64,000 nt of DNA from a virus. The number at the start of each line of letters is the position of its first letter. Position 1 is the first letter of the stretch. The notes below the pieces were generated by a model. The model made no database searches, had not been told where the DNA came from, and saw only the letters and a list, made by a program, of their open reading frames with translations. The position numbers were made by a program, and so were the translations under genes. The stretch spans positions 1 through 64,000 of IMG/VR virus record IMGVR_UViG_3300009550_000013; one strand, 5' to 3'. Below, in pieces: positions 353 to 24,046 of the stretch.

Positions 353-838
353 ATGAACAACTTAGACAACTTTAACGAATTTAATGAATCTTTAAATGAA
401 TCCTTAAATGAAGAAAGACACGATGCTACAACAAGAGATTTAGCAAGTAAAGTTACACAGCTTTTTTATAACGTTGAATTCTGGAGATTTAGAGATGCTA
501 TGAATTTGGTTATAAGAAGACACTATAACAGAAAAGCACAGTTTCAAGAAAGTGTGGTGACTGAAGCTAAAATTTCAAACCAAGAATTCTATACTATTAA
601 ACAACATGCTGAAGATTATCCCTTGGATGATGGAAGTAGACTATATGTATGGCAGGAAACTATTAATGGTTTTGGTGGTGAAGGTGAAACCATGGTTAGA
701 ATGGCTTTAGCTAATGGAACTATAGTAGATTTCAAGAAGGTTGAAAATAGATTGGAACTAAGACATAGACTTGATATAGAGAGTTGGATGGATGATGCTG
801 AATCTGGAAACAAGGCTGCTATAGCAGGTTTAAGATAA
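353..838 (+). CDS. Hypothetical protein with capsid-targeting-like N-terminus
   Basis: A 161-residue protein of unknown function. Its first 24 residues are rich in N, F, L and E and contain two L-N-E triplets. They resemble the N-termini of the next two genes and of the ATP-grasp protein at 22982. In T4, internal head proteins carry a comparable leader (F-x-x-F then I/L-x-E) that is cut by the prohead protease. The remainder looks globular, mixed alpha/beta and acidic. It is the first of three adjacent genes with this leader, behind a TATATAA motif. Packaging in the head is inferred only from the leader. Confidence 0.75.
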   Translation: MNNLDNFNEFNESLNESLNEERHDATTRDLASKVTQLFYNVEFWRFRDAMNLVIRRHYNRKAQFQESVVTEAKISNQEFYTIKQHAEDYPLDDGSRLYVWQETINGFGGEGETMVRMALANGTIVDFKKVENRLELRHRLDIESWMDDAESGNKAAIAGLR

Positions 839-850
839 AAATAAATAATT

Positions 851-1234
851 ATGAAAAGAGTAGGGAATTTTAAAGACTTTTTAAATGAAGAGTTAAATGA
901 AAAAATTGCTAGTAACCAAGTAAGAGGATTCCGTAAGGAATTAGACAGTGCTATTACTAGTGCAGTAACTAGAGCATTTGATTTAGGAGCTAGTCCTTCT
1001 GAGTCTGCTGAGAATGTTCAAGAATTAGAGACTATGATTAATCAGATATTTGCAGATGCTGTAAAGAGTGTATCTGAATCTAATGATATTAATAGTGTAA
1101 ATGAATCTAAAGGTCCTAGTTTATCAATGACTTGTGCTTCTGATTCAGAGGAACATGCTGATTCTATCAAAGACGAATTAGGTCGTTGGTTAGGTAAAGC
1201 AGGTGCTAGTAACGTTGATATAAGTATCAAGTAA
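851..1234 (+). CDS. Hypothetical protein with capsid-targeting-like N-terminus
   Basis: A 127-residue protein starting M-K-R-V-G-N-F-K-D-F-L-N-E-E-L-N-E. The F-x-x-F-L-N-E leader matches the neighbouring genes and is followed by a second possible L-N-E cleavage site. The body is predicted mostly helical, with many Ser, Ala and Glu residues. I recognise no domain. It lies 12 bases after the previous stop, so it is co-transcribed. A small internal head protein is a reasonable guess; function is unknown. Confidence 0.75.
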   Translation: MKRVGNFKDFLNEELNEKIASNQVRGFRKELDSAITSAVTRAFDLGASPSESAENVQELETMINQIFADAVKSVSESNDINSVNESKGPSLSMTCASDSEEHADSIKDELGRWLGKAGASNVDISIK

Positions 1235-1236
1235 TT

Positions 1237-1665
1237 ATGAGAAATCTACAGTATTTTAATGACTTCTTAAATGAAGGTAAAGATAATTGGTTAGCTAAAA
1301 TCAAAAAGTATTTCTTTGGACTTAAACCTGGTAATTTAATTTTAAGACCTCAAACTGGTTCAGATAGAGAGGGAAGGTTGTATATGTTAGTAGACCCTTT
1401 AGAAGATAATGAAGGATTTATCAAGGTTCATCAAGTTGGAGGTATACATAGAAGAGAATTTGACAATTCATTATATTGTAGTTTAGTTTTTAATACTAAA
1501 AATACTAAAGTAGTAGGAATAATGCAGAACCATGATGACTTTACATCATATAGGAAATTAAAGTCTGAAGAGATTAAGATGGTTAAAGAGGCATTAAAAG
1601 AATCAGATTCTAAAAGGTATATTGACATTGTAAAAAAGAATACGGGTCTAGATATAAAAATATAA
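1237..1665 (+). CDS. Hypothetical protein with capsid-targeting-like N-terminus
   Basis: A 142-residue protein starting M-R-N-L-Q-Y-F-N-D-F-L-N-E-G, the cleanest example of the shared leader. After the leader comes a basic helix and then a compact beta-rich domain at about residues 30-100, containing P-G-N-L-I-L-R-P, which could be a small SH3-like barrel. That fold guess is weak. It starts two bases after the previous stop. A terminator-like hairpin follows at 1695, so this ends the three-gene unit. Confidence 0.75.
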   Translation: MRNLQYFNDFLNEGKDNWLAKIKKYFFGLKPGNLILRPQTGSDREGRLYMLVDPLEDNEGFIKVHQVGGIHRREFDNSLYCSLVFNTKNTKVVGIMQNHDDFTSYRKLKSEEIKMVKEALKESDSKRYIDIVKKNTGLDIKI

Positions 1666-1694
1666 GTATACGACCCACTCGAAAAAAGGATTCT

Positions 1695-1725
1695 CCCCGA
1701 TGTTATCGTAGCATTGGGGTTCTTT
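1695..1725 (+). terminator. Terminator-like hairpin
   Basis: CCCCGATG and CATTGGGG pair (one G-T pair) around a 9-base loop, followed by a short T-rich run. It sits 30 bases after the stop of the preceding gene. The T-run is interrupted, so termination efficiency is uncertain. Confidence 0.4.
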
Positions 1726-1816
1726 ATGCCCCATTATTAGACCTACAAGAGGGGGTTGTGGCTGACTTAAAGAGCCCGTAGGGGTTATAGAATAAAAATT
1801 TCCTTGATAAAATAGA

Positions 1817-1848
1817 CTTTAGAGGGTGAATACTTTTTTTCTCTAAAG
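1817..1848. other. Perfect 8-bp inverted repeat in non-coding DNA
   Basis: CTTTAGAG and CTCTAAAG enclose a 16-base T-rich loop. It lies between genes with no adjacent T-tail, so it is more likely RNA structure or a protein site than a terminator. Confidence 0.35.
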
Positions 1849-1983
1849 AAAATCCGAGAGGAAAATAAGTGATTATATTAGAATACTTTTGAGAATCAGA
1901 GGGGTTAAGCTATAATCTTAGAATAGATTATTATCATAATATAATGTTGTTTCACGGAGGGACTATTTTATAGGTTTCATCAA

Positions 1984-1993
1984 ATATATAAAA
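1984..1993 (+). promoter_or_regulatory. Putative phage promoter motif ATATATAAAA
   Basis: This is the TATATAA core found before many operons here. It lies about 60 bases upstream of the structural gene at 2045, longer than the usual 27-37 base spacing. Confidence 0.35.
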
Positions 1994-2044
1994 AGAATAA
2001 CTTACATAGTGTGAGTTTAAAAAAATAAAAAAAACAAAATTAAA

Positions 2045-4069
2045 ATGGCAGAATTAAACGCAGGCGTCAATAGATACGTTCTAGGCGCGACCGGACCTAA
2101 TGGAAAGACGGCATTTACAACAGAAACACCTGGAGCTACAGGTTTCGGTGAATCTACACACCACTTTGAAAAATCATCAGGAGATACAGGAGTATTTGTA
2201 TATAGTTCTGATGTTACTTCAATTACAGTATGGCAAAAAATATCCGGATCTTGGAAAAATTGTGGTACCACTGGTAATATAGGGCAATTAAGTGAAACAT
2301 CACCTATGTGGAATTTATCCTTTGCATGGCGAGATGGAGCAACACACATGCATTTTCAAGCAGATGGTGTTAGCTCAGCCGGTGAAGAATTAAGAGTTAT
2401 TAGAATTGAAGAAAATATGATAGCTTCACTTAAAGGAAATGGTAAAGAACTTATACTATTATTAGATGGTGCAGGAGTTGATGATTCGGATTCTGATGGA
2501 GATATCGAAGTAACTAGTGGAGTTGGATATGTTAGACATAAAATAGACTATAAAACTACAACAGTTGACGGAACAACAGGAGCATTCGATATTGAACTAG
2601 GCGTTCAAGCTTCAGGAGGTGTTATTATCTTAAACGATACTACGGTATTAAAAGTTTCTGAAAAAACAGCATGGGATGGAACGAATACCGTATTTGAAGG
2701 TATTAATCCAACACTAGTTGCATTTAAGAAAAAAGATGAGGTATATTTTTGGTACCAAGAAGGTAGTACTTATACAGGTAACGTATCTGATGGTGCTATT
2801 TCTGGAGCTACTGTAACTGATGTTGCAACAGGAGCTACAGCATTAACAGATTCTAATGGAGACTTTACATTCTCATCAACACCAAGTGGAGTTATTGAAT
2901 CTACAGGAGGAGTTGATGTCGTAACTGGAGATGCGTACGTTGGTACACTTAAAGGAAATGGAGACTACTTAGTAATTTCCCCATTAACTACTGCAGCAAT
3001 TGAAGTTGCAGCTGATTCTGGTGTTTCATTTGACCAAGCAGTTGATGATATTTTAGATAATTCAGAAGCTCTTTTTGGAATTGCATTCTCAAAAGATGAC
3101 AAAGATGAATTATTAACTAAAAGATTTATCGATGAAGCGGCAAATGGAAATACTAAAGCTATTAAAGGTTCAGCATTGATGTCATTATTAGATTCTTCAG
3201 CTGAAGTTTATGGTGAAGCATTAACACACATGTCAGATGCAACTGCAGGAAACCTTGCAAGTGATTCTTCTGATGGTAAAAAAGAAGCATACAAAGGTAT
3301 TGCAAGATTAGTTAGAGAAGCAAAATTATTGACAAGCGACCAAGTAAACGACCTTTCAGAACCTTTAGTTGCTGATGCTACTAAAGTAACTGATAACGTA
3401 GCTTTAAATAAAGGAGCAGCTACTGTTAATATAACATTATTAAATTCAAGAGGTTCAGCTTATAAATCTCAAGTTGGAAATTTAGTAAAAGAAAGAAGTG
3501 AAGATTTTAGAGAAGCACTAGATGATAGATATGATGAGAACTATGCTATCACAAGAGTACAGTCTATCGCTAAAACTACTAAGAATGAAGATAAAACAGC
3601 TTTAGAAGCATTCACAGGTGCAGGTATAAATGATACCTTAACTAAAACTACAGTAGACAATACTAAAGTTAATCAAATTGGTAGTGTTCCAAATAAAACA
3701 GTAGAAGAGACTAAGTATTCAATAACTGAGGCTACTGTAACAAGCCTATCTACCACTGATACTTCCGATCTAGATGAAGTAGCTTCAGATTTAAAACTTG
3801 GAAAAGGTGAAACAAGAGCATACGGATATATTAGTTTAGCTGTAAAATCTCAGCTTTACTTAAAAGTAGGAGGTAAAGAGGCAAAATACGAACCTATAAC
3901 TTTTAAAAATGGAAAAGATGGTTACATAGGTAATTCTATTGAGTTGAGTAAATCAAAAAAATATAGAGGAGGTAAAATGACTATAGGTCTAAATATTTAT
4001 ACTTTTGATTTTAATGGTATAATAACTGCAATAGAATCAGCAGCTCCAGGTAAAGGTAAAGGTAAATAA
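2045..4069 (+). CDS. Large virion surface protein with Ig/CNA-B-like domain
   Basis: A 674-residue protein, probably a fibre, head decoration or adhesin. The N-terminal 120 residues are Gly/Thr/Ser-rich and beta-like. Around residues 245-290 is a segment with S-G-A-T-V-T-D and S-N-G-D-F-T-F, typical of carboxypeptidase-regulatory-like/CNA-B beta-sandwich domains. A helical, Asp/Glu/Lys-rich middle part (about 310-560) follows, then a short beta C-terminus ending in Gly-Lys repeats. The start ATG is preceded by an A-rich tract. A strong terminator follows directly, so it is probably a single-gene unit. Host-surface binding or capsid decoration is inferred; the location on the particle is unknown. 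Confidence 0.7.
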   Translation: MAELNAGVNRYVLGATGPNGKTAFTTETPGATGFGESTHHFEKSSGDTGVFVYSSDVTSITVWQKISGSWKNCGTTGNIGQLSETSPMWNLSFAWRDGATHMHFQADGVSSAGEELRVIRIEENMIASLKGNGKELILLLDGAGVDDSDSDGDIEVTSGVGYVRHKIDYKTTTVDGTTGAFDIELGVQASGGVIILNDTTVLKVSEKTAWDGTNTVFEGINPTLVAFKKKDEVYFWYQEGSTYTGNVSDGAISGATVTDVATGATALTDSNGDFTFSSTPSGVIESTGGVDVVTGDAYVGTLKGNGDYLVISPLTTAAIEVAADSGVSFDQAVDDILDNSEALFGIAFSKDDKDELLTKRFIDEAANGNTKAIKGSALMSLLDSSAEVYGEALTHMSDATAGNLASDSSDGKKEAYKGIARLVREAKLLTSDQVNDLSEPLVADATKVTDNVALNKGAATVNITLLNSRGSAYKSQVGNLVKERSEDFREALDDRYDENYAITRVQSIAKTTKNEDKTALEAFTGAGINDTLTKTTVDNTKVNQIGSVPNKTVEETKYSITEATVTSLSTTDTSDLDEVASDLKLGKGETRAYGYISLAVKSQLYLKVGGKEAKYEPITFKNGKDGYIGNSIELSKSKKYRGGKMTIGLNIYTFDFNGIITAIESAAPGKGKGK

Positions 4070-4094
4070 AAATAATTTTTACTGAAACATAATT

Positions 4095-4122
4095 AAAAAG
4101 CCAGCATTTGCTGGCTTTTTTT
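4095..4122 (+). terminator. Strong rho-independent terminator
   Basis: A 12-bp stem, with AAAAAGCCAGCA pairing with TGCTGGCTTTTT and almost no loop, ends in a T-run just after the structural gene at 2045. Confidence 0.9.
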
Positions 4123-4156
4123 GTTAAACATTTTTGAGAAATCATATATAAATTAT

Positions 4157-4468
4157 ATGAAACAAATGCCAGAACAATTAGAGTATTTTACAGAACCTGA
4201 AAAACTTGAACTCTTTTTAAAAGAAAGACATGCTGAAATTTCTAAAAAAATAGCAGAATTTTTAATATGGGCTCTAGAAAACGATGAAGAAGCATTTATA
4301 TTTGCAGATATTTTATTAGACGATGGAGAAAGACTAGAAAATATGCAGCTTGGATGTGAAAAAAGAGACTATTTAGAAGCATTAGAAAAACAATTAAATC
4401 ACATGGTAGAATTCGAAGAATTCGAATTATGTGAAGAATTACAAAAATGGATAACTTTATTAAAATGA
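4157..4468 (+). CDS. Small acidic helical protein, UVR-like C-terminus
   Basis: A 103-residue all-helical acidic protein of unknown function. I place the start at the ATG at 4157; an in-frame TTG at 4121 lies inside the terminator tail and is unlikely. CATATATAAA lies immediately upstream. The C-terminus F-E-E-F-E-L-C-E-E-L-Q-K matches a motif (E-Y/F-E-x-C-x-x-L/V) shared by small proteins at 9988, 25907, 27942 and 28473. The motif resembles the UVR helical hairpin of UvrB, ClpC and McsA. It may be an adaptor, as inferred from the phage ClpC also having a UVR motif. Confidence 0.7.
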   Translation: MKQMPEQLEYFTEPEKLELFLKERHAEISKKIAEFLIWALENDEEAFIFADILLDDGERLENMQLGCEKRDYLEALEKQLNHMVEFEEFELCEELQKWITLLK

Positions 4469-4563
4469 AATACTACTCAACATGTACTGTAGAAGGGCTT
4501 ATATGGAAATGGGAATTAGTAGGTAGGTCCCTGTAACCGGGCACCCAATCAAAAATTAAAATT

Positions 4564-5220
4564 ATGAATGAAAACGATAGAGCAAGAGATGCTTGGCAAG
4601 TATTAAGAATACAAGGAGAATTTACAAAAGGATTCGACGAATTAGCAGAATTAGGACCATGTATATCGATTTTTGGTTCGGCTAGAACTAAAGAAGATAA
4701 CAAATATTATACCAACGCGAAAGAATTTTCAGAATTATGTGTTAAGAACGGATTTGGTGTTATAACCGGAGGAGGACCTGGTATTATGGAAGCAGCTAAC
4801 AAGGGCGCATATAAATCTAAAGAAGGATCTGTAGGTCTTTCAATACAACTACCTTTTGAGGCTAAAGAAAATGACTATATAGATAAATTAGTAGAATGCA
4901 GATACTTTTTTACTAGAAAAGTTTTCTTTTTAAAATATGCACAAGCATTTGTTGGGTATCCTGGAGGTTTTGGAACTTTAGATGAGTTATTCGAAACCTT
5001 AACACTTATTCAATGTGGACACATGAGAAGAGTACCGGTAGTTCTTGTAGGTGTAAGTTATTGGAGACCACTTATACATTGGTTAAAAGATACTATGTGT
5101 AAAGAGGAAGGTAATATTTCTGAAAAAGATTTTGACTTATTTACAATAGTAGATACTCCACAAGAAGCAATGGATTATATTATTCAAACACGAAAATATC
5201 AAGCAGATATTAATTTTTAA
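4564..5220 (+). CDS. LOG-family (lysine decarboxylase-like) phosphoribohydrolase
   Basis: A 218-residue protein of the LOG/Rossmann family. The family motifs are clear: I-F-G-S-A-R at about 37-42, G-G-G-P-G-I-M-E-A at 69-77 and P-G-G-F-G-T-L-D-E at 133-141. Characterised members cleave nucleoside 5'-monophosphates to base plus ribose 5-phosphate, and some act in cytokinin activation. Length is normal for the family. In a phage it might recycle nucleotides or remove a modified or signalling nucleotide; the substrate is not readable from sequence. Roughly 95 bases of mostly non-coding DNA precede it. Confidence 0.9.
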   Translation: MNENDRARDAWQVLRIQGEFTKGFDELAELGPCISIFGSARTKEDNKYYTNAKEFSELCVKNGFGVITGGGPGIMEAANKGAYKSKEGSVGLSIQLPFEAKENDYIDKLVECRYFFTRKVFFLKYAQAFVGYPGGFGTLDELFETLTLIQCGHMRRVPVVLVGVSYWRPLIHWLKDTMCKEEGNISEKDFDLFTIVDTPQEAMDYIIQTRKYQADINF

Positions 5221-5264
5221 ACAAAAAAGATTATTATAATATAATAATAAAATATTAACGTACT

Positions 5265-5483
5265 ATGAAAAAAAGTAAAATTGTAGAAGCTTTAAGAACA
5301 CAAGCACTTGCTGATAAAGCAAAAGCATTAATGGCATTAGACCTTTTAGAAAATCAAGCAGCTGGTATCGGTGACCATACAGCAAATGACTTTATGAAAG
5401 ACGCTCAAGAAGCGTTATCACTTCTTGTAGATGCAGATGATAAATTAGAGGCGATTCGAATCTATTTCCCGACAAAATTATGA
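5265..5483 (+). CDS. Small helical hypothetical protein
   Basis: A 72-residue Ala/Leu/Asp-rich protein predicted to form two or three helices. I recognise no domain. It starts after an AT-rich gap with ATAATATAATAATAAA and overlaps the next gene by ATGA, so translation of the two is probably coupled. Unknown function. Confidence 0.7.
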   Translation: MKKSKIVEALRTQALADKAKALMALDLLENQAAGIGDHTANDFMKDAQEALSLLVDADDKLEAIRIYFPTKL

Positions 5484-5716: not shown

Positions 5717-5796
5717 TAATATATTATATAAAATTGATATAAAACTTTGAATTCTTAAGTGCTTTCTAGATAGATATAATAAATACCATTCTATTT

Positions 5797-6483
5797 ATGA
5801 GCATTGACTTTACACTAATCTTTTATTCGATAGGTATACCATTTATTTATTTATGGTTTCTATACGGGTTTTCTAAAAAAAATCTTTTTGAAATAAGCGA
5901 TTTAGTTAAAGCTGTTTTTTTAGGATTTATTTCAACAATATTTACAACATATAGTTATGCTGCTTTTCCAGTAGATTGGTATGACTTAGATGTTTTTCAA
6001 CAATATTTCTATCAAGTTGCAGTAAGAGAAGAAGTTTCAAAGTTTTTAGCATTTTTATTACTAATTAATTTTTCTATAAAAAGAAAATTAAAACCATTAG
6101 CATTAATGTATTTATGCGGTATAGTAGGGTTTGGTTTTGGAGTCCAAGAAAATATGATTTATTATCATAGATATGGTATAGAAACTTTATTAGTTAGAAA
6201 CTTCAGTTCTTTATTAGCGCATACTATATTTGGAATGTTTACTGGTTATTGGTTTGCATTAGGACAATCTAAGTTAAAAGAACTTAATATAAATTATCTT
6301 AAAAAAGTTCAACCCTATTTTTATACTACTATTGGTTTGGTTTCATCAATTATGTTTCATGGACTTTGGAATTATAATTTAGGAACTTCAGGTTGGGCAG
6401 CAGATTCTATAATGTACTTAATGATGATAATTGGATTTTTAATTATCAGCATATATAATAATAATTTAAAAAATATAAAATAA
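5797..6483 (+). CDS. PrsW-family intramembrane metalloprotease
   Basis: A 228-residue multi-pass membrane protein with about seven hydrophobic segments. All PrsW motifs are present: E-E-V-S-K (78-82), Q-E-N-M-I-Y-Y (117-123), H142 in L-A-H-T, and H-G-L-W-N (188-192). PrsW proteases cut membrane-anchored regulators such as anti-sigma factors within the lipid bilayer; Bacillus PrsW cleaves RsiW. The active-site residues look intact, so it is probably an active protease. A role in rewiring host envelope-stress signalling or in removing host or competing-phage membrane proteins is inferred. It is followed by a gene starting one base after its stop. Confidence 0.85.
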   Translation: MSIDFTLIFYSIGIPFIYLWFLYGFSKKNLFEISDLVKAVFLGFISTIFTTYSYAAFPVDWYDLDVFQQYFYQVAVREEVSKFLAFLLLINFSIKRKLKPLALMYLCGIVGFGFGVQENMIYYHRYGIETLLVRNFSSLLAHTIFGMFTGYWFALGQSKLKELNINYLKKVQPYFYTTIGLVSSIMFHGLWNYNLGTSGWAADSIMYLMMIIGFLIISIYNNNLKNIK

Positions 6484-6484
6484 A

Positions 6485-6946
6485 TTGCTATTTAAAAAAA
6501 TAAACGATGAGTCATTATTTGAATTATCAAGCTACATCAAAGAATATATTGAGCTTAATAAAGAACATAATGTTAAAATTTACTTAGGAACTGATAGTCA
6601 AAATAAGTCTAATAGAACTACTTACGCAACTACAATAGTTTTTCATATAGGAAATACTGGGTGCCATGTTATATACTCTAAAGAAAATGTACCCTTAATA
6701 TCAGTTGCTAATTATTGGGATAGATTATGGGGAGAAGTTGAAAGATCTGTGAAAGTAGCAATATATTTAAGAGATAATAATATCGAAATACACAGTATAG
6801 GGTTAGACTTAAATTCAGACCCCAATACTAAATCAAATAAACTTGTTCAGTCGGCAGTAGGTTACGTAGAAGGTTTAGGTTTTAAAGCTAAAATAAAACC
6901 AGATATATTACCAAGTATAAAAGCTGCTGACGATTTAGCAAGATAA
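6485..6946 (+). CDS. YkuK/DUF458-like RNase H-fold protein
   Basis: A 153-residue protein. The N-terminal core Y-L-G-T-D-S-Q (about 33-39), a T-T-Y-A-T-T-I-V strand and a later acidic L-D-L-N-S-D motif fit the DUF458/YkuK family of predicted RNase H-like nucleases. The start is TTG at 6485, one base after the prsW stop; no ATG lies early enough to keep the first strand. Substrate is unknown. A role in RNA processing or turnover is possible for the family. Confidence 0.75.
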   Translation: MLFKKINDESLFELSSYIKEYIELNKEHNVKIYLGTDSQNKSNRTTYATTIVFHIGNTGCHVIYSKENVPLISVANYWDRLWGEVERSVKVAIYLRDNNIEIHSIGLDLNSDPNTKSNKLVQSAVGYVEGLGFKAKIKPDILPSIKAADDLAR

Positions 6947-6997
6947 ATAAATAAACATTTTGTAGATTTTAAATACAATAAATATAAAAAAGAAACA

Positions 6998-9007
6998 ATG
7001 AGTTACGCTGGTGATTTTGATAAGAACGAAGGTTCAAAAAGTAATAGAAAAAAAGGTACTCCTTTTTTAGACACGTTTGGTGAAGATTTAACTAAAATGG
7101 CTAAAGAAAATAAACTAGATTCTATTATAGGTAGAGATAAGGAAGTATTTAGAATATGTCAAATTCTTTCTAGAAAAAAGAAAAACAATCCAATTATTCT
7201 TGGGGATCCTGGTGTCGGTAAAACTGCGCTTGTTGAGGCTATAGCCCAAAGAATAGTAGATAAAAAAGTGCCAAGACTTCTTTTAAATAAAAGAGTAATA
7301 AGTCTCAATATGACAACAATAGTTGCAGGTACAAAATATAGAGGTGAATTTGAGGAGAGAATGAAAATGATTGTTGATGAATTAAAGACGTCACCAAATA
7401 TTATTGTTTTTGTAGATGAAATTCATACTATCGTCGGTGCAGGAGGAGTAAGTGGCTCTTTAGATGCAAGCAATATTCTTAAGCCAGCACTTGCTAGAGG
7501 TCAAGTACAATGCATAGGTGCAACTACACTTGATGAGTATAGAGAAAATATCGAGGAAGATGGTGCATTAACTAGAAGGTTTCAGGAGGTATTCATAGAC
7601 CCTCCTTCTTCTGAAGAAGCAGTAGAGATACTTATGAAAATAAAAGAATCTTATGAAGACCATCACAACGTAGTTTATGATGATGCTGCTATTACTGCAT
7701 GTGTAAGATTAAGTGAAAGATATTTAAAAAGTAGAGAGCTTCCAGATAAAGCTATTGATTTATTAGATGAAACTGGAGCTAGAAAAAACTTAGCAGATGT
7801 TAAAGTTCCACCAACTATTAAGAAGTTGGAAGAAGAACTTGCAAAATGTGGAAATGATAAAAATGCTGCAGTTAAAAAACAAGACTACGAAAAAGCTGCA
7901 TATTGTAGAGACCATGAAATAGAAATAAGAAAAAAGATAAATCTTGAAAATAAAAAATGGGAAGATTCTCTTAAAAAGAAAAAAAGACCTGTAACTGAAG
8001 AAGACGTTGCTGAAACTATTTCTCTTCAAACTGGAATTCCTTTAAAAAGACTTGCTGGAGATGATTTATCAATGGTTCTTAAAATGGAAGATGAATTAAA
8101 ATCTAATATAATAGGCCAAGACAATGCTATTGAAACTCTTTCTAGAGTGATTAAAAGAACCAGAGCAGGGGTAGCGTCTCATAATAAACCAACTGGAAGT
8201 TTTATGTTTTTAGGACCTACTGGAGTTGGTAAGACACAGACTGTAAAAGCACTTTCAGATTATTTATTTGGAGATGAATCTGCTTTCATAAGAATAGATA
8301 TGTCAGAGTATCAAGAAAAATTTAATGTTAGTAGATTAGTTGGTTCACCTCCAGGATATGTTGGTCATGAAGAAGGAGGTCAATTGACTGAACAGGTTAG
8401 ACGTAAACCGTATTCTGTAGTATTATTTGATGAAATAGAGAAAGCACATCCTGATGTATTTAATATATTGTTACAAGTGTTAGATGAAGGTAGATTAACA
8501 GATTCTCTTGGAAGAACTATTGATTTTACAAATACTATTATTGTACTTACATCAAATGTTGGAGCTAGAAAAATAGCAGACTTCGGTACTGGAATAGGTT
8601 TTCAATCTAAAAAAGAAGCAGCACATCATAATGAAAAAATAGATAGTATCATTAAGAAAGAACTTAAAAATAAATTTAGTCCCGAGTTTTTAAATAGACT
8701 CGACGATATTGTATTATTCGATCAGCTTTCTGAAGATAACATTTTAAAAATTGTAGAAGTAGAGTTGAAAGACTTTATGGAAAGAATGTTAGAAATAGAA
8801 ATTGAAGTTTCTTTAGATGATGCAGCCAAAAAGTTTTTAGCAAAAGAAGGTTATGAACCAGCATACGGTGCTAGACCTTTAAAGAGAGCTATTCAAAATC
8901 ACGTTGAAGATTTATTAGCAGATGCTATAATAAGAGGTGATGTCAAAAAAGGTTCTAAAATTAAAATCGTAAAAAAATCTAAGGATATTAAACTTTCTAT
9001 AAAATAA
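6998..9007 (+). CDS. ClpC-type AAA+ unfoldase lacking the N-domain
   Basis: A 669-residue Clp/Hsp100 protein. The usual repeated N-domain is missing: the protein starts at the linker before the first AAA module. Walker A1 is G-D-P-G-V-G-K-T (69-76) with Walker B V-F-V-D-E (137-141). A short middle domain carries a UVR motif, D-Y-E-K-A-A (296-301), as in ClpC. Walker A2 is G-P-T-G-V-G-K-T (406-413) with Walker B L-F-D-E. T-G-I-G-F (531-535) lies at the position of the loop that docks ClpA/ClpC/ClpX on ClpP. A clpP gene lies 1.3 kb downstream, so a phage ClpCP protease is likely. Loss of the N-domain suggests different adaptors or substrates. Confidence 0.95.
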   Translation: MSYAGDFDKNEGSKSNRKKGTPFLDTFGEDLTKMAKENKLDSIIGRDKEVFRICQILSRKKKNNPIILGDPGVGKTALVEAIAQRIVDKKVPRLLLNKRVISLNMTTIVAGTKYRGEFEERMKMIVDELKTSPNIIVFVDEIHTIVGAGGVSGSLDASNILKPALARGQVQCIGATTLDEYRENIEEDGALTRRFQEVFIDPPSSEEAVEILMKIKESYEDHHNVVYDDAAITACVRLSERYLKSRELPDKAIDLLDETGARKNLADVKVPPTIKKLEEELAKCGNDKNAAVKKQDYEKAAYCRDHEIEIRKKINLENKKWEDSLKKKKRPVTEEDVAETISLQTGIPLKRLAGDDLSMVLKMEDELKSNIIGQDNAIETLSRVIKRTRAGVASHNKPTGSFMFLGPTGVGKTQTVKALSDYLFGDESAFIRIDMSEYQEKFNVSRLVGSPPGYVGHEEGGQLTEQVRRKPYSVVLFDEIEKAHPDVFNILLQVLDEGRLTDSLGRTIDFTNTIIVLTSNVGARKIADFGTGIGFQSKKEAAHHNEKIDSIIKKELKNKFSPEFLNRLDDIVLFDQLSEDNILKIVEVELKDFMERMLEIEIEVSLDDAAKKFLAKEGYEPAYGARPLKRAIQNHVEDLLADAIIRGDVKKGSKIKIVKKSKDIKLSIK

Positions 9008-9016
9008 TCATATAAT

Positions 9017-10295: not shown

Positions 10296-10988
10296 ATGTG
10301 GTATTACCCAAAAGACGAAGAATTTAAAAGATTTGCAAAATCAGAAGGAGTATCTTCAAGCAAATTAGATTATTATAATTCACAAATAGAAAATTCTATG
10401 ACTCCCTACATTCTTGAGGAAAGACAATTGAGAGCAACTCAAATGGATATATTTTCTAGATTAATGATGGATAGATTATTATGGGTTGCAGGACCTGTTA
10501 ATGATAATATGTCGACAATTGTACAAGCTCAATTAATGTTTTTAAGTAATTCTTCTAATGAAGATATTACAATGCATATAGATAGCCCAGGAGGTTCAGT
10601 TAAATCCGGACTTTCTATGGTAGATGTTATGGACTATATTGGAAATGATATTAGAACGATAAACACTGGAATGGCAGCTTCAATGGGTTCTGTTTTATTA
10701 GGAGCAGGAACTAAAGGAAAAAGAATGAGTTTAAGATTTAGTAGAACAATGCTACATCAATCAAGTGGAGGTGCTGGCGGAAATATACAAGATGCTAGAA
10801 TTCAATTTGAGGAATGGGAAAAAGTCAATAAAACTTTATTTGAATTATTAGGAGAGTACTGTGGAAAAAACGCAGATCAAGTTAAAAAAGATGCTGAAAG
10901 AGATTTATGGTTAGGAGCAAAAGAAGCTTTAGACTACGGAATTATAGATGAAATAGTAGAAGGTACTGGAAAAACAAAACCGTGGTAA
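10296..10988 (+). CDS. ClpP-like serine peptidase
   Basis: A 230-residue ClpP homologue with an N-terminal extension of about 40 residues. The catalytic triad is visible: Ser129 in G-M-A-A-S-M-G, His154 in M-L-H-Q and Asp203 in E-R-D. D-S-P-G-G-S (96-101) forms the substrate/oxyanion strand. It should form the tetradecameric chamber that degrades proteins fed by ClpC (6998), which carries an I-G-F docking loop. Phage ClpP-like proteins are also used as prohead proteases, but that role is less likely with a paired Clp ATPase. The gene follows 9988 by two bases. Confidence 0.93.
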   Translation: MWYYPKDEEFKRFAKSEGVSSSKLDYYNSQIENSMTPYILEERQLRATQMDIFSRLMMDRLLWVAGPVNDNMSTIVQAQLMFLSNSSNEDITMHIDSPGGSVKSGLSMVDVMDYIGNDIRTINTGMAASMGSVLLGAGTKGKRMSLRFSRTMLHQSSGGAGGNIQDARIQFEEWEKVNKTLFELLGEYCGKNADQVKKDAERDLWLGAKEALDYGIIDEIVEGTGKTKPW

Positions 10989-16134: not shown

Positions 16135-16203
16135 AAACTTCAGAATATAGTATTCTAAGATTATCTTAAAGTTGCTTTTTTAGTGCTCCGGCCAGAAAAG
16201 CTG

Positions 16204-16318: not shown

Positions 16319-16373
16319 GTGGTAAAACACAAAAGCCACACTAACGTGGAAATAAAAAAAACAAAAATAAAAC

Positions 16374-19300: not shown

Positions 19301-19799
19301 TGAGGACGCATTAGCTGCTGAAATCGCTGCTACTAACGCTGACTTCACTTCATTAGACTCAAGAGTTTCTGCTGACGAAGCTGCTTTAGCTGCTGAGATT
19401 GCTGCTACTAACGCTGACTTCACTTCATTAGACTTAAGAGTTTCTAATGATGAAGATGCTTTAGCTGCTGAAATCGCGTCTACTGATGCTGATGTTACTT
19501 CAATTGACGTTAGAATTTCTAATGTTGAAGAAGACATAATCGTTGAAGGTGACTTTGCTATGACAATGGTTGCAGGACCTGCAGTTGCTGGTTCTTTCAT
19601 TGAAGAAGTTGTTACTGGAGATATCATCACAAAATCTTTAGAGGTATTCATTAACGGAATTCAATATTTCGATGGTGTTGCTACTGGAGACGTATCTATT
19701 ACCGTTGCAGGTGGAAATACTACTATCAAAGTAGACCCATCTAACTTCGATTTAGATTCATCTGATGAAATCGTTTTCAAATATACTAAATTATCGTAA
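16374..19799 (+). CDS. Giant coiled-coil repeat tail fibre
   Basis: A 1141-residue protein. After about 60 unique residues it consists of some 35-40 repeats of about 25 residues, built on R-V-S-x-D-E-x-A-L-A-A-E-I-A-A-T-x-A-D. The units are predicted to form a long parallel trimeric coiled coil with regular breaks. Two 63-codon segments (17229-17417 and 18828-19016) are near-identical and interrupt the array. The last 90 residues are a beta domain with V-F-I-N-G-I and D-L-D-S-S-D-E, like the fibre at 14176. It is highly acidic and lacks Cys and Trp in the shaft. A strong terminator follows. It is probably a long tail fibre or whisker. Confidence 0.88.
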   Translation: MNLIRAKQLNAYRQSGANQLLASSSWANLDASFVIDAKTIGLKFESMDTALASEESARIAADASLEVRISADVVALQDEIAATNTDFTSIDLRVSNDEDALAAEIAATDANFTSLDLRVSNDEDALAAEIAATDAEVSSLSLRVSNDEDALAAEIAATDADFVSSDARIAADEAALAAEIAATDAEVSSLSLRISNDEDALAAEIAATNADFISADARMSADEAALAAEISATNADVTSIDSRVSADEAALAAEISATNADVTSLDSRVSADQAALAAEIADTNQDVNDLNDRVDNVLSLGENSNGVVESFIEMVNVVTSIDTENDQIVSDLIATTTASVSSLDTRVSDSEDALAAEIAATDADFVSLDLRVSNDEDALAAEIAATDAEVTSLSLRISNDEDALAAEIAATDADFTSLDSRVSADEAALAAEIAATNADFVSSDLRVSQEEDARVAGDASLTTRVSNEEDARVAGDASLTTRVGNEETARAAADSSLDLRVSNEEDARAAADTSLTTRVSNEEDARAAADTSLEVRISADVVALQDEIAATNTDFTSIDLRVSNDEDALAAEIAATDADFVSSDLRVSNEEDARVAGDASLTTRISADEAALAAEIAATNADFISVDNRVSADEAALAAEIAATNADFTSLDSRVSADEAALAAEIAATNADVTSIDTAIADEEAARIAADNTLQANITAEALARANADTSLETRLSAEEATQVANVSSLDLRISNDEDALAAEIAATNADVTSIDSRVSADEAALAAEISATNADVTSIDARVSAEIAATDAEVVSLDARVSADQADLAAEIAATNTDVNDLNDRVDNVLSLGENSNGVVESFVEMVNFVTSVDTENDQIVTDLIATTSASVSSLDTRVSTEEATTDAEVNSLDSRVSADEAALAAEIAATNADFTSLDLRVSNDEDALAAEIAATDADFTSLDSRVSADEAALAAEIAATNADFTSLDLRVSNDEDALAAEIAATNADFTSLDSRVSADEAALAAEIAATNADFTSLDLRVSNDEDALAAEIASTDADVTSIDVRISNVEEDIIVEGDFAMTMVAGPAVAGSFIEEVVTGDIITKSLEVFINGIQYFDGVATGDVSITVAGGNTTIKVDPSNFDLDSSDEIVFKYTKLS
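17229..17417 (+). repeat. 63-codon duplicated module, copy 1
   Basis: Encodes D-V-N-D-L-N-D-R-V-D-N-V-L-S-L-G-E and following residues up to S-L-D-T-R-V-S. Copy 2 lies at 18828-19016 with the same length and only a handful of amino-acid changes. It divides the coiled-coil array into similar super-repeats. Confidence 0.85.
18828..19016 (+). repeat. 63-codon duplicated module, copy 2
   Basis: Second copy of the module at 17229-17417, same length, with changes such as F-V-E-M-V-N-F for F-I-E-M-V-N-V. Confidence 0.85.
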
Positions 19800-19816
19800 T
19801 AAATAATTTAATATGG

Positions 19817-19840
19817 AAAGGGCCTTCGGGCCCTTTTTTT
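19817..19840 (+). terminator. Rho-independent terminator
   Basis: AAAGGGCC-TTCG-GGCCCTTTTTTT: an 8-bp stem with a stable UUCG tetraloop and a seven-T tail, just after the giant fibre gene. Confidence 0.95.
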
Positions 19841-19873
19841 ATGAACTAAAAAAAATAAATACATATAATAATT

Positions 19874-21046
19874 ATGAAGATAGGAATCACAATTTCATTT
19901 AGAGAAAATTATTCAATATGGTCTAACGGTATTCAATTAAATGCTCTTATGTTAGCTGAAACCTTATCATTAATTAAAGGTGTAGAAGTATTTTTTTTAA
20001 ATATAGCAAAATGCCCTGAAGAAAAAATACCATGGAGCTTAGAAGAATTTCCTACTTACTATCTTTATGATAAGTATTTAGAAGCTGATTTATTAATTTT
20101 TTTAGGTGGTAGAATTCAAAAACAATATGTTGATTTATTTAAAAAAGTAAAAGATAAAAAAGTTGTATTTTACAAATGTGGGAATGAGTTTATAGTTAAC
20201 TTAGAAAAGAATCTTTTTGGGGAGGATATGAAAGAAGACGATAAATTAGAAAGCATATATGGATGTGACGAGATATGGTATGTTCCTCAACAACATGATA
20301 CAAATAAAAATTACTTTGAGTGTTTATATAGAACACCTTCTAGACCAGCTCCTTTTGTTTATAGCCCAAGATGGTTGAACAAAGATATAAAAAAGAAAGA
20401 AGCTATATATAAGAAAACTATGTTATACAGTAATACAGGGGAACCAAAGAGAATATCTATAATGGAACCAAATATGAATATTGTTAAATATGCAATGTAC
20501 CCTCTGATGATAGCTGAAACATACTACAGAAAAAATCCTGATAAAATAAAAGAAGTAAATATTGTTGGTGGAGATAGATTAAGTAAAAAACAAAATTTTC
20601 TATCAGTTGTAGATACTTTTGATTTAAAAAGAGATAAAAAGTTATTTGTTGAAGGTAGACAAGTTACTAGTTCATTTTTAGGAAACCATTCAGATATTTT
20701 AATATGTCATCAAACGATGAATCCTTTAAATTACATATATTTAGATGCCGCTTGGATGGGATATCCCATAATTCACAATGCCGAATATGTTAAAGATTTA
20801 GGGTATTACTATAGTGGAAATGAGGTAAAATCAGGTGCTAATAAATTAAAAGACGTGATAGACCATTTTGACGATGATGTGTCATATAATAAAAGACAGA
20901 AAAAAGTATTTGAAAGGTTTGATAATACTTCAAATGAAATGGTATTACAATATGATAAATTAATTAATAACATTTTTGCTAAAAAAGATTTAATGATTGA
21001 TTCTAAGTTTGATTTTATGAAAAATAAATACGTTTTGTGCAAATGA
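19874..21046 (+). CDS. DUF2827-like glycosyltransferase
   Basis: A 390-residue GT-B-like protein. The N-terminus I-G-I-T-I-S-F-R-E-N-Y and S-I-W-S-N-G-I-Q-L-N-A fits the DUF2827 family. A C-terminal half with H-Q-T-M-N-P-L-N-Y and A-W-M-G-Y-P-I-I-H-N resembles the nucleotide-sugar-binding domain. It lies directly after the giant fibre gene, so it may glycosylate fibre Ser/Thr residues or alter host surface glycans. No donor specificity can be read. The following gene overlaps it by ATGA. Confidence 0.8.
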   Translation: MKIGITISFRENYSIWSNGIQLNALMLAETLSLIKGVEVFFLNIAKCPEEKIPWSLEEFPTYYLYDKYLEADLLIFLGGRIQKQYVDLFKKVKDKKVVFYKCGNEFIVNLEKNLFGEDMKEDDKLESIYGCDEIWYVPQQHDTNKNYFECLYRTPSRPAPFVYSPRWLNKDIKKKEAIYKKTMLYSNTGEPKRISIMEPNMNIVKYAMYPLMIAETYYRKNPDKIKEVNIVGGDRLSKKQNFLSVVDTFDLKRDKKLFVEGRQVTSSFLGNHSDILICHQTMNPLNYIYLDAAWMGYPIIHNAEYVKDLGYYYSGNEVKSGANKLKDVIDHFDDDVSYNKRQKKVFERFDNTSNEMVLQYDKLINNIFAKKDLMIDSKFDFMKNKYVLCK

Positions 21047-21621
21047 AAAACTATAAAAAAAATATCATAAAAATATACGAAAAGTCTAACTTACCATTAA
21101 AATTAGAATTGACGCCAGAAACAGTTAGTGAGTTAATAATTAAAATAAGAAAATTAGATGCTTATAGAATTTCAGGAGGTGTTACAGATTCTATATTTGA
21201 TTTAAACCCACAGTATGGTAAAACTCTTGCACATTTAATAACAGCAAATACTTTTTTTAAAAAAATAAGTTTTATCTATAATGAAGATACTTTTGATAAA
21301 ATTAGTAGGCTTTTAAAACAAATAAAACTAGAATCAAACCAAGATTGGAATGGTAATAGTAAAGATTTTTTTAAAATTAAAGAATTCGCGAGTGTAAATA
21401 TTAGTATAGACTCTCTTGTAGAGGGAAATGAACAAATAGAACATGTATGGGCTCATTTAGAACCAAATCAACTTTTAATTACAACTAAAAATATAAAAGA
21501 CACATATCCAATAAAGGTAATAGAAGCTAAATTTATAGGTTTAAAAACAACAACAAAATTAAATATTTACAGAAAAACTTGGGTAAGACATGGTATACCA
21601 AGTAGATTTGGTGTTTTATAA
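21043..21621 (+). CDS. Hypothetical protein beside glycosyltransferase
   Basis: A 192-residue basic protein without recognised domain. I take the ATG at 21043 (ATGA overlap with the glycosyltransferase stop) rather than the TTG six bases earlier. Mixed alpha/beta content. Co-expression with the glycosyltransferase suggests a linked role, possibly as accessory protein. Its 3' end overlaps the convergent J-domain gene by six bases. Confidence 0.7.
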   Translation: MKNYKKNIIKIYEKSNLPLKLELTPETVSELIIKIRKLDAYRISGGVTDSIFDLNPQYGKTLAHLITANTFFKKISFIYNEDTFDKISRLLKQIKLESNQDWNGNSKDFFKIKEFASVNISIDSLVEGNEQIEHVWAHLEPNQLLITTKNIKDTYPIKVIEAKFIGLKTTTKLNIYRKTWVRHGIPSRFGVL

Positions 21622-22185
21622 ATCTTCTAGATTTTTTCCTTTTGTTAAAGATACAAATTTCTTTATAAACTCTTCTTTTTCTTTCTCTTCTTTTAAAACA
21701 TGTTCATAGTACCATGCTGCAGTTCCTTGAATTTCATCTATCATGTTTTGAATATCATTACATGCATTTTCTATTTCTTCAATATCTTCTTCAAAATCAG
21801 TAACATCAATATCTAATTTTACAGCACATACTATCAAAGGTGTTGGCTCTCCTAAATCATAAGACTCTGTACATATTTCATATATAGACCTAAGTTCTAA
21901 TTTCTCAGTTTCGGATAAATTATCTGATATTTTATCAGGATGGCATTTTAAAACAATCTTTCTGAAAAGTTTTTTATACTTAGAAGACATTTCAATATGT
22001 TCTTTTTCTTCTTCTTCAATATCTTCTTCTCCATTAGGTAAATATTGGTCTGCATTATCAGATCCCGAAAGGGCCTTATTAAAATTTCTAGTTGCTTCAG
22101 AGTGCATTTCTTGTATGTCAATAAGTTCTTCGCTTAAGTATTCATACTTTCTTATTAATCTCTTGAAGTTTGATTTTTTAGCCAT
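21616..22185 (-). CDS. J-domain-like protein, only minus-strand gene
   Basis: An acidic helical protein of about 189 residues. It contains K-C-H-P-D-K, the J-domain H-P-D loop, preceded by a basic helix (K-Y-K-K-L-F-R-K-I-V-L) and followed by E-L-R-S-I-Y-E-I. It is therefore a probable DnaK co-chaperone or J-like decoy. I place the start at the ATG at 22185, because the upstream extension to 22263 is hydrophobic, low complexity and lies over the divergent promoter. It is the only convincing gene on the minus strand here and lies among fibre genes. It could help fibre folding or act at a different time. Confidence 0.75.
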   Translation of the reverse strand: MAKKSNFKRLIRKYEYLSEELIDIQEMHSEATRNFNKALSGSDNADQYLPNGEEDIEEEEKEHIEMSSKYKKLFRKIVLKCHPDKISDNLSETEKLELRSIYEICTESYDLGEPTPLIVCAVKLDIDVTDFEEDIEEIENACNDIQNMIDEIQGTAAWYYEHVLKEEKEKEEFIKKFVSLTKGKNLEDL

Positions 22186-22208
22186 ATCAATATATATTAA
22201 AATAAAAA

Positions 22209-22222
22209 GATATATAAACAAA
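22209..22222 (+). promoter_or_regulatory. Putative late promoter AGATATATAAACAA
   Basis: AGATATATAAACAA, followed by ATAGAATAAA, is nearly the same as at 12197. It lies 37 bases before the ATG at 22246, in the 60-base divergent gap shared with the minus-strand J-domain gene. Confidence 0.5.
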
Positions 22223-22245
22223 TAGAATAAAGTGTAAAAGTTTTC

Positions 22246-22980
22246 ATGAACAATATTGCGCAAAAACAGATTAAAAATCTGGTCTTTGATATTTCACGTT
22301 TGTATAGAGCTTCTGATATTTTTAACAGAGCAACGACATATACAATAGGAACTCCTGGAGAAGGAGAGGCTCAGCTTGATAATCAGACAGCTTCTTCAGT
22401 AACTACACTTCATATTCACACAAAAGACAACCTTACCGGAAATAGATTTTCTAATTTAGATTCTTTTCAAAAAGACGACACGTTAATAATACATACTCAG
22501 TCAGGTGATGTTGCAAAATATAATATTTTATCAATTCAATCAGTGGTCGACTCTTCTAGCGAAGGTCACTTTATTCTAACACTTCAACATTCTTTCGGTT
22601 ATAGCGGAAGCTTTTCTATAGAAGAGCTAAGTTATTATTTTAGAAGATCGGCTTCTGATGAATTGATACAAGATTTAAAGGCAGAATTGGCATTTATTAG
22701 CGCAGGTTTTGATGCTAGGTCAACTGCAGAAACAATAGCACGTGCAAATGGAGACAGTGCAATAAATCAAACTATTTCTTCTAAAAAGAAAGTATTTAAT
22801 GAAACGCTTAGTTCTACTGCAACTACTATAAATCATGACATGGGAGATGAAGATGTAATAGTACAGGTATTAGATTCTTCTGGTAATGTAGTATTAGCTA
22901 CCATAAATAACTTTACACTAAATTCTATTAATGTTGCAGTAAGCGTTACAGGAACTTATAAAATAATAATTATAGCATAA
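22246..22980 (+). CDS. Tail fibre-like structural protein
   Basis: A 244-residue protein. The N-terminal 130 residues are beta-rich. A short coil with S-T-A-E-T-I-A-R-A-N-G-D follows, similar to the repeat-fibre style. The C-terminal 60 residues have the layout of a common phage-fibre end domain: T-I-N-H-D-M-G-D-E-D-V-I-V-Q-V-L-D and a final Y-K-I-I-I-I-A strand. It is probably a short fibre or fibre-tip protein. It ends one base before the ATP-grasp gene starts. Confidence 0.78.
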   Translation: MNNIAQKQIKNLVFDISRLYRASDIFNRATTYTIGTPGEGEAQLDNQTASSVTTLHIHTKDNLTGNRFSNLDSFQKDDTLIIHTQSGDVAKYNILSIQSVVDSSSEGHFILTLQHSFGYSGSFSIEELSYYFRRSASDELIQDLKAELAFISAGFDARSTAETIARANGDSAINQTISSKKKVFNETLSSTATTINHDMGDEDVIVQVLDSSGNVVLATINNFTLNSINVAVSVTGTYKIIIIA

Positions 22981-22981
22981 A

Positions 22982-24046
22982 ATGAAACTAAAACTATTTG
23001 AACAATATCTTAACGAAAAAGAGGAATCCGATATTAAAAAGTATTTTAAAAAAGTAACTTTTTTACTTCCAGGAACCAGTAGTAACTCTCTATCAGGAAC
23101 TGCATCGTCATACCAAAAATTAAATGATGGCTGTTTAGAAGAGGTTTTTAATACTGTTTTTTGTAGAAGTAACCAATCCCATTTTAAACACATGCCTGCC
23201 AAACAGGTAAAATATATCAACTCTTTAAAAGTAAGTAATAAAATGCCCGTAGTTTATTATGGCGGTAATCAACCAGCACCTTTGCTTTTATTAAAAAATA
23301 ATAAAATACCAGAAACAATAATGTACAATAACCCAAAATCAATGGGTATAAGTTCAAATAAATCTGATTTCTATAAAATGTTTAAAGACTCTAATTTTAT
23401 ATGCAAAACAGAATATACAGCAGATGATGCTATTAAAAAATTAAAATTTCCTATAATAGCAAAACCAGATGCTGGACATTCAGGTGCTGATATAGAATTT
23501 TTTAAAACATCTTCTGATTTAGAAAAATCTGAAAACAAATCAAAATTTCAAAACTATTCAGAAGCTAAAAATTTAAAAAGCGAATATCGTGTAATGGTTA
23601 TGAACGATAGTATTATTTCTATATATGAAAGAGTTTCTAAAAAAGGAGACCCTATTAAAGATAAGAAGAGCGAAGATTACGTTAGTTTTGTATATGTAAG
23701 ACAAGAGCTCTCTAAATTAGATTTTGTAAAAGACACTGAAAACATTATTAAAGAAATAAGAGAAAAGGTTAAAGGTGGAATATGGTCTGTTGACTTGATG
23801 ATAGATGAAAATAATGATAAATGGGTTGCAGAAATAAATAGTGCATCTGGTCTTTCAGCTGAAAGAATGGTTGAAGTATATTCTGCAGTTTATAAAGATT
23901 TTTATAAAGAAGAACTTCCTGAAAAAGTTACGAAATATCTATATGACAACTATGTTGTTCCAGTCCATGAAATAAACGTCAAAGAAAATGCAAAATGGAT
24001 AAAAATGTCTAAGGGAAAGTCTAATGAATATGAGAAATATCTTTGA
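22982..24046 (+). CDS. ATP-grasp ligase with capsid-targeting-like leader
   Basis: A 354-residue ATP-grasp protein. The leader M-K-L-K-L-F-E-Q-Y-L-N-E-K matches the F-x-x-F/Y-L-N-E leaders of the genes at 353-1665. ATP-grasp features are F-P-I-I-A-K-P-D-A-G-H-S-G-A-D (about 156-170), E-Y-R-V-M-V-M and the metal-binding end W-V-A-E-I-N-S-A-S-G-L. This resembles RimK/glutathione-synthetase-like ligases, which join a carboxylate to an amine using ATP. If the leader is a packaging signal, the enzyme would be carried in the head and injected. Substrate unknown; a protein or peptide target is plausible. Confidence 0.85.
   Translation: MKLKLFEQYLNEKEESDIKKYFKKVTFLLPGTSSNSLSGTASSYQKLNDGCLEEVFNTVFCRSNQSHFKHMPAKQVKYINSLKVSNKMPVVYYGGNQPAPLLLLKNNKIPETIMYNNPKSMGISSNKSDFYKMFKDSNFICKTEYTADDAIKKLKFPIIAKPDAGHSGADIEFFKTSSDLEKSENKSKFQNYSEAKNLKSEYRVMVMNDSIISIYERVSKKGDPIKDKKSEDYVSFVYVRQELSKLDFVKDTENIIKEIREKVKGGIWSVDLMIDENNDKWVAEINSASGLSAERMVEVYSAVYKDFYKEELPEKVTKYLYDNYVVPVHEINVKENAKWIKMSKGKSNEYEKYL

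Follow-up and report, generated by a model that had tools for sequence, protein, structure and literature searches.

A probable T4-type capsid-targeting leader on unrelated proteins of an uncultured jumbo phage and its relatives

Leader proteins in the window

The window analysed, a stretch of 64,000 nt, is part of a 71,334-bp record (IMGVR_UViG_3300009550_000013), a genome fragment of an uncultured jumbo/huge myovirus that is kin to phages of Bacteroidota. A common leader, [FY]-x-x-[FY]...L-N-E, was read directly at the starts of four of its proteins, named here by the first base of their genes (353, 851, 1237 and 22982, Table 1). The first three genes are consecutive, with gaps of 12 and 2 bases. 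Proteins 353, 851, 1237 and 22982 begin with MNNLDNFNEFNESLNESLNE/ER, MKRVGNFKDFLNE/ELNE/K, MRNLQYFNDFLNE/G and MKLKLFEQYLNE/K, respectively (slashes mark putative cut sites). The two aromatic residues stand at the T4 targeting spacing, as F7 and F10 in the first three proteins and as F6 and Y9 in 22982. LNE occupies residues 11–13 in 851 and 1237, 10–12 in 22982, and both 14–16 and 18–20 in 353, the leader of which contains repeated sites (MNNLDNFNE/FNE/SLNE/SLNE/ER).

Table 1. Proteins and candidate leaders in the window
Feature	Position	Strand	Basis or start
353 protein, 161 aa, leader protein	353..838	+	direct reading
353 protein, leader (residues 1-20)	353..412	+	direct reading, motif count
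851 protein, 127 aa, leader protein	851..1234	+	top rank with LR756500 matrix
851 protein, leader (residues 1-13)	851..889	+	matrix, motif count
1237 protein, 142 aa, leader protein	1237..1665	+	second of 79 with LR756500 matrix
1237 protein, leader (residues 1-13)	1237..1275	+	matrix, motif count
ATP-grasp ligase, 354 aa	22982..24046	+	PF08443 (E 4.6e-8), PHROG 2599, invariant residues, model
ATP-grasp protein, leader (residues 1-12)	22982..23017	+	motif count, L053 homolog
24829 protein, 156 aa, basic	24829..25299	+	starts MTVLKFEDWQILE
26389 protein, 83 aa, coiled-coil-like	26389..26640	+	starts MKHLANFEMNE/G
26642 protein, 89 aa	26642..26911	+	leader-like start MKYLKSFKLFE/HQ (MKYLKSFKLFEHQ), matrix
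32975 protein, 181 aa, very acidic	32975..33520	+	starts ...LSFEEYSSR

An aromatic-xx-aromatic...[LIVM]NE start was present in 4 of the 79 N-termini (about 0.04 expected), against 9 of 18,759 internal windows, showing that the leader which an earlier sequence-only reading had noticed on these four proteins is real. LNE within residues 8–20 occurred in 6 of the 79 ORFs (0.30 expected, P = 7e-7). The LNE of thymidylate synthase (9035), one of these six, is probably coincidental, as is that of RNase HII (29473), the syntenic homolog of which in contig G005 (MNKAKHIILKSYMNKELVEVG) lacks the E. A matrix of 13 residues, built solely from 19 leaders of the related 462-kb genome LR756500, placed 851 and 1237 at the head of the window ORFs (per-position p about 1e-4), with 26642 and 22982 ranking next (p about 0.003).

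The proteins encoded at 353, 851 and 1237 gave no significant match to Pfam or PHROG. An identical contig in viral_contigs was the sole source of homologs for three of the four leader proteins; for 353, no homolog beyond this contig was found there. A single-sequence fold prediction of 1237 was poor (pLDDT 59) and was set aside. Within 353, QFQE/SVVTE/A is a possible further joint. Because 851 contains a second site, SVNE/SKG (VNE at residues 83–85), its sequence suggests that it consists of two modules.

That 22982 is an ATP-grasp enzyme was confirmed by the PF08443 match together with the conserved nucleotide and Mg residues K161, the GHSG motif, D271 and E284-x-N286, which place it in the RimK/ArgX/D-Ala-D-Ala ligase superfamily. 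Its model (pLDDT 79.7) matched ArgX, Ddl and RimK in the PDB with a TM of about 0.5. The syntenic homolog in contig L053 begins with MLKTFEQFIVE/K.

Weaker versions of the leader had been proposed for four more proteins, with mixed outcome. The start of 26642 is plausible as a leader: its syntenic homolog in L053/G004 starts with MKYVKTYNVFEHQ, and its body weakly resembles (31% over 29 aa, E 6e-4) the final module of a chain in L176 (10588-11745) that begins with a canonical leader. In 26389, a possible leader, the second aromatic is missing and the assignment is uncertain. The other two were unsupported and were dropped as cleaved cargo. Protein 24829 has no counterpart between the flanking homologs in a syntenic contig. 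Protein 32975 shares a conserved LSFEE[YF]S start with its acidic G005 homolog (49136, MNTNQILSFEEFSTRG), and neither contains an L-x-E site; it is possibly a core-type protein and was left out of the cargo count.

Leaders, head protease and capsid sites in related phages

The genome-wide leader search suggested by the sequence-only reading was run in relatives and was positive: LR756500 encodes about 20–30 leader proteins (control pattern, 0). In IMG/VR the leader pattern was present in at least 120 stretches, with up to 6 leaders each, compared with 23 stretches for a control version in which the first codon is not ATG. With the strict pattern, large genomes contained 2–14 leaders each (reversed-pattern control, 0). 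The strict DNA pattern was unmatched in the cultured relatives PTm5, pT24, MA9V, MaF61 and PAU; PAU has a leader variant of its own, MKT[LI]xQL[FY]E, on seven genes.

Codons of the leaders varied synonymously, indicating conservation at the level of the peptide and not of the DNA. The bodies behind the leaders are mostly unrelated (160 bodies formed 115 clusters, 89 of them single). At the residue after E, which was left free in the search pattern, S, A or G was found in 58% versus 18% (P = 3e-27); the window leaders mostly depart from this preference, with E, K or G following their last LNE. Homologous proteins retained the leader, as seen for the ATP-grasp protein in the window, L053 and L087 and for a ligase-like protein in LR756500 and G005 (MKFLKSYEEFLNE and MLLTYEQFLVE). 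The Glu is missing from some leader proteins of LR756500, including an ATP-grasp homolog (MKFIKPYEEFKIND). Leader proteins of relatives include Acb1, Tad3, ART-PolyVal and NUDIX, besides ATP-grasp, RimK, PNK3P, PAP2 and S41-like types, and counter-immunity proteins are likely to be among the cargo.

A T4 gp21-type protease (S77) is encoded in all 12 large leader-bearing IMG/VR genomes and in 8 of 9 related records. In LR756500 an S77 protease-scaffold fusion adjoins the gene for the Gp23 capsid protein, and contig G003, which encodes a homolog of the window ATP-grasp protein, has a similar S77/Gp23 head module. A search of the 71-kb fragment detected neither an S77 protease nor a Gp23 major capsid protein, and the fragment has no head genes; the gp21-like protease sought was found in the relatives. 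A ClpP-like protein is encoded in the window (10296, PHROG 'head maturation protease') but is not the favoured candidate for cutting the leader: its gene has a Clp ATPase gene and thymidylate synthase nearby, and the S77 of relatives is found next to the capsid gene.

The expected cleavage sites in capsid and scaffold proteins were also found in relatives. At the T4 gp23 maturation position, each of the 9 aligned major capsid proteins carries [LIM]-x-E/[SN], and the scaffold is rich in [LIVMF]xE[SANG]. In G003 the capsid protein carries LNE/SVY and its gene is immediately followed by a leader gene (MKRVKSYNEFIAE/S); LNE/S is also present in the MA9V capsid protein.

Cargo chains and the proposed role of the leader

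In relatives, some leader genes code for strings of modules that are unrelated to each other, with x-x-E at the joints. Module A (..ERGF[NT]E/) is followed by any of four different sequences, module B (..HFGI[SN]E/) by several and module 0 (..LL[x]E/) by many; where module 0 stands alone, it terminates without the LL[x]E site. Within the chains, leader copies are found internally and in frame (G005 1585-3543, L204 and L228). A 'second leader', MEKTRKEVYKQLGREDLL (most of 39 contigs), was rejected, being the final stretch of a first module of 80 residues; read upstream in frame, it has a non-ATG or earlier start, with a canonical leader in most. Further [LIVMF]NE[SAG] sites were enriched in leader proteins (18 of 118 proteins, P = 3e-4), but only 2.4-fold, so most cargo would be single-module.

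Direct observations from the sequences are the leader, its occurrence on unrelated proteins, the accompanying protease, the matching capsid site, the S/A/G preference and the x-x-E joints. On these grounds the shared start is very probably a T4-type capsid-targeting leader, cut in the head by a gp21-like S77 protease, with the cargo injected. The leader, M-K-x-I-x-x-[FY]-x-x-F-[LIV]-N-E with variants, would bind the scaffold core through its two aromatics during head assembly and bring the attached protein into the prohead. The S77 protease, in relatives usually a scaffold fusion, would cleave on the C-terminal side of the Glu in [LIV]-N-E, as well as at similarly formed sites in the capsid protein and scaffold, and so release the mature protein within the head. 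The cargo would then leave with the DNA and act at the start of infection; the ATP-grasp ligase of the window phage may modify a protein or peptide of host or phage origin. Some of the cargo genes in relatives would encode module chains joined by the leader-type cut sites.

Three other explanations were considered. The leader proteins might belong to the structure or scaffold of the head and be degraded in maturation instead of being injected, like the T4 core proteins gp67, gp68 and gp22, which are chopped up by gp21; some are indeed small, charged or coiled-coil (26389; G003 43036-44214). However, enzymes and inhibitors are numerous among them (ATP-grasp, RimK, NUDIX, PNK3P, PAP2, S41-like, Acb1, Tad3, ART-PolyVal), most of which carry the leader site alone, and we regard this explanation as improbable. 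Targeting to a host membrane, a phage compartment or a degradation system, with the leader uncut in the head, appears slightly less probable again. Short basic-aromatic N-termini can serve as other signals, the leader proteins without Glu in LR756500 would fit such a role, and the Clp ATPase (6998) and ClpP-like protein of the window could process tagged proteins, but the capsid-site match (9 of 9), the S/A/G preference, the presence of S77 (12 of 12) and the x-x-E joints fit a substrate of the prohead protease instead.

Recombination behind a common 5' sequence (promoter, ribosome site and first codons) could also have left a mosaic remnant, a peptide without a role. Near-identical leaders on tandem genes within one genome (G016 39510-47465, L109, L112) and the unrelated bodies are in line with this, yet the residues are kept while the codons vary synonymously, one pattern is retained across diverged phages, leaders occur in frame inside chains, and the constraint extends to the residue after E. 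We consider it the least probable of the three, and very unlikely.

Extending the capsid-targeting explanation to the chains, we lean towards cargo polyproteins that are cut by the head protease. A leader followed by interchangeable modules ending in [LIVF]-x-E would supply several effectors from one gene in a fixed ratio, with new ones inserted at the joints, and together with the many leader genes (Acb1 and Tad3 homologs in relatives) would form a pre-loaded counter-immunity kit acting before phage gene expression.

If the capsid-targeting explanation holds, a 13-residue tag would reveal, by sequence alone, which of the many uncharacterised genes of large uncultured phages have products that travel in the head and are injected. 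Many pre-loaded proteins would be predicted, including homologs of CBASS and Thoeris inhibitors in relatives, and leader proteins lacking assigned roles would be promising places to look for new anti-defence activities. With the module chains, a capsid protease would take on the unusual role of cargo processor, and the leader might serve as a tool to load proteins into phages of Bacteroidota.

Comparison with known systems

The likeness to the T4 leader that had been pointed out agrees with the published T4 capsid targeting sequence. That sequence is likewise a short N-terminal leader on unrelated proteins (IPI-III and Alt, gp21 substrates; PMC9026906, PMC3012670), with the same aromatic-x-x-aromatic-[LI]-x-E spacing (PMC9026906). 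Targeting depends on its residues 4 and 7, processing on its residues 8 and 10 (PMC9026906), and the S77 protease cuts after (L/I)-x-E and also matures the capsid protein (PMC9026906, PMC3012670). T4 ipI, for example, starts with MKTFKEF...ITE/A. In contrast, the putative leader described here is usually three residues longer (13) and prefers N before E. It differs from T4 in the number of copies (2–14 per large genome with the strict pattern, about 20–30 in LR756500) and in its cargo, which in some relatives consists of multi-site chains.

The giant phages SPN3US and phiKZ also have large heads with many packaged and ejected proteins, and a gp21-like protease cleaves several of these after a short, E-terminated motif (PMC10052503, PMC5694885, PMC9026906). 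According to PMC10052503, which covers 42 SPN3US head proteins, most packaged proteins are uncut, and a recurrent 13-residue leader or cargo chains were not met in the available parts of this literature. For phiKZ, a 2026 review describes Tad1, an anti-defence protein, as injected (PMC13282480).

Polyvalent proteins (J Bacteriol 2017) carry several domains, among them conflict domains such as ART, and their packaging and injection have been predicted (PMC5512222). For these, an own peptidase domain or action as a single chain was proposed (PMC5512222), whereas the joints described here resemble head-protease substrate sites, at which modules are gained and lost. A literature search among open-licence papers yielded no description of the leader or the cargo chains, and no virion proteomics of a relative. 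Compared with these systems, the leader system is new in its scale, its counter-immunity cargo and its modular chains with cut sites at the joints.

Leaders in the window and its source record

The sequence-only reading had described a basic or Asn-rich start, F-x-x-F/Y and L-N-E on the window proteins starting at 353, 851, 1237 and 22982 and had likened these starts to those of T4 internal head proteins; all four leaders read exactly as claimed. Its weaker examples fared unevenly: 26642 is plausible and 26389 uncertain, and 24829 and 32975, being unsupported, were dropped as leader proteins. L-N-E was present at residues 8–20 of 6 of the 79 ORFs, where chance predicts 0.30 (P = 7e-7); the complete motif stood at 4 of 79 N-termini versus 9 of 18,759 internal windows. 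A matrix built from 19 leaders of the 462-kb huge-phage genome LR756500, a distant relative, and so not fitted to the window, ranked 851 first and 1237 second among the 79 ORFs, followed by 26642 and 22982.

The record totals 71,334 bases, of which the window covers 1–64000. Neither the Gp23 capsid protein nor an S77 protease (T4 gp21 family) was found in the 71,334 bases, indicating that the head module is missing and making the absence of the protease there uninformative. A large structural-region protein of the window matched LR756500, Tenacibaculum phages PTm1, PTm5 and pT24, PAU, Chryseobacterium MA9V, Flavobacterium MaF61 and Lak megaphages, and the IMG/VR contig G005 is syntenic with the record.

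Coordinates of leader genes and neighbouring features (a slash marks the proposed cut)
Record	Coordinates	Feature	Remark
Window	353-1665	Leader genes	Identical copies on 36-kb contig IMGVR_UViG_3300027859_000983
Window	22982-24046	Leader gene	Identical copy on the same contig
Window	6998-9007	Clp-type ATPase	Gene close to that for the ClpP-like protease
Window	10296-10988	ClpP-like protease
Window record beyond base 64,000 (L009)	6380-6748 (record 70380-70748)	Candidate core protein, MKTFVKYLEENKVTKEEMSLLTE/G...	Just outside the window; leader-like start, several x-x-E sites; conserved in G005 (10763)
L085	12243-13727	Leader protein	RimK-like ATP-grasp, weak Zn_protease domain match
LR756500	11706, 13446, 15074, 124308, 180972, 197835, 198758, 313382, 331856	Proteins tagged at both ends
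G016 (contig of L129)	C1:39510-47465	Tandem array	Ten leader starts MKRIxNYKTFINE, spaced ~700-970 bases
Phage PAU	W02:C1:90664-120321	Seven genes starting MKT[LI]xQL[FY]E	Several lie next to its S77 protease
T4 (L259)	3952-4410	Gene 57B	Starts MMEFKDF

Protease, capsid site and leaders in relatives

An S77 protease is encoded by 8 of 9 related records, by the IMG/VR contig G003 and by all 12 of the large genomes that bear leaders. In relatives it usually occupies part of an open reading frame some 600 residues long that looks like a protease-scaffold fusion, and in LR756500 and G003 its gene directly precedes the capsid gene. In an alignment of nine phages, every capsid protein carries [LIM]-x-E/[SN] a short distance ahead of the conserved body, at a position equivalent to T4 gp23 E65; the site reads LNE/S in G003 and MA9V.

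About 20–30 LR756500 proteins start with MKYIKEYEEFLxE or near variants, including leucine-rich-repeat (LRR) proteins, a PNK3P phosphatase, a metallopeptidase-VWA protein and a ligase-like protein (assigned by eye). Many, LRR and non-LRR (L010–L019), share the C-terminal motif KYEHLxNADDFGFFDN or similar, which gives them a shared element at each terminus. The PAU starts would represent a phage-specific variant of the leader.

Across IMG/VR the leader pattern occurred in at least 120 stretches, versus 23 for a control with first codons ending in C, which are together commoner than ATG. The 12 large genomes hold 2–14 leader genes each (reversed control pattern, 0), with leader codons differing synonymously. 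The bodies of 160 leader proteins formed 115 clusters and are largely unrelated, with Pfam matches to Acb1, Tad3, ART-PolyVal, NUDIX, RimK, AAA, PAP2 and DUF5824. The search pattern left the residue after E free; S, A or G stood there in 83 of 142 leaders, compared with 18% at the positions that follow (P = 3e-27), as expected of a protease site.

Proposed ATP-grasp cargo and cargo chains

The window ATP-grasp protein, whose leader is MKLKLFEQYLNE, is a competent-looking ligase. Its structure model matches ArgX, Ddl and RimK, which suggests that it may ligate an amino acid to a protein or peptide. Homologous cargo retains the leader type (MLKTFEQFIVE in L053/G005, MKKIKLFEEFLNE in L087); in LR756500 the homolog shows the targeting part and lacks the Glu. 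The L085 protein is probably a second kind of ATP-grasp cargo.

In L051, L052, L055, L056 and many others of 39 contigs, the frame runs from leader through module 0 (~80 residues, ending LL(K)E) and zero or more further modules to an ATP-grasp or other last domain. Module A ends RGF[NT]E and has four different continuations; module B ends FGI[SN]E before ATP-grasp of two kinds or a different module. Stand-alone module 0 ends LLNKKD, LLDK or LLEK, without the proposed site. A 652-residue G005 protein (weak S41-like match) holds a complete second leader, MKKVKLFEEFLNE/S, internally; L204 and L228 also have internal leaders, and in L176 the leader and further modules are joined by NE/A sites, the last module resembling 26642. 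Chains are a minority, since further sites are only 2.4 times commoner in leader proteins as a whole than in other ORFs.

Interpretation and comparison with T4

A T4-type capsid-targeting leader would explain the aromatic targeting residues, site, protease, capsid site, body variation and module joints, a reading based on sequences mostly from relatives. The leader proteins would then be packaged, cut and injected. Analogy with T4 IPI and with the leader-bearing Acb1 and Tad3 points to counter-defence early in infection, or takeover of the host, as the most likely role of 353, 851 and 1237. Such a leader is already known from T4. What is new, as far as the open-licence literature shows, is its spread in jumbo and huge phages, how many copies a genome holds, that homologs of known immunity inhibitors bear it, and that head-protease-like sites delimit chains of cargo modules.

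The start of T4 57B, the anti-CBASS protein Acb1, is like the MKTFKEF of its neighbour ipI. T4 IPI counters a restriction enzyme (PMC3012670). T4 gp21 cleaves after L/I-x-E, and the T4 leader directs targeting mainly via residues 4 and 7 and processing via 8 and 10 (PMC9026906). This spacing recurs in the window leaders, which carry two or three additional residues in front. The delayed site of T4 ipI (MKTFKEF...ITE/A) resembles that of 353.
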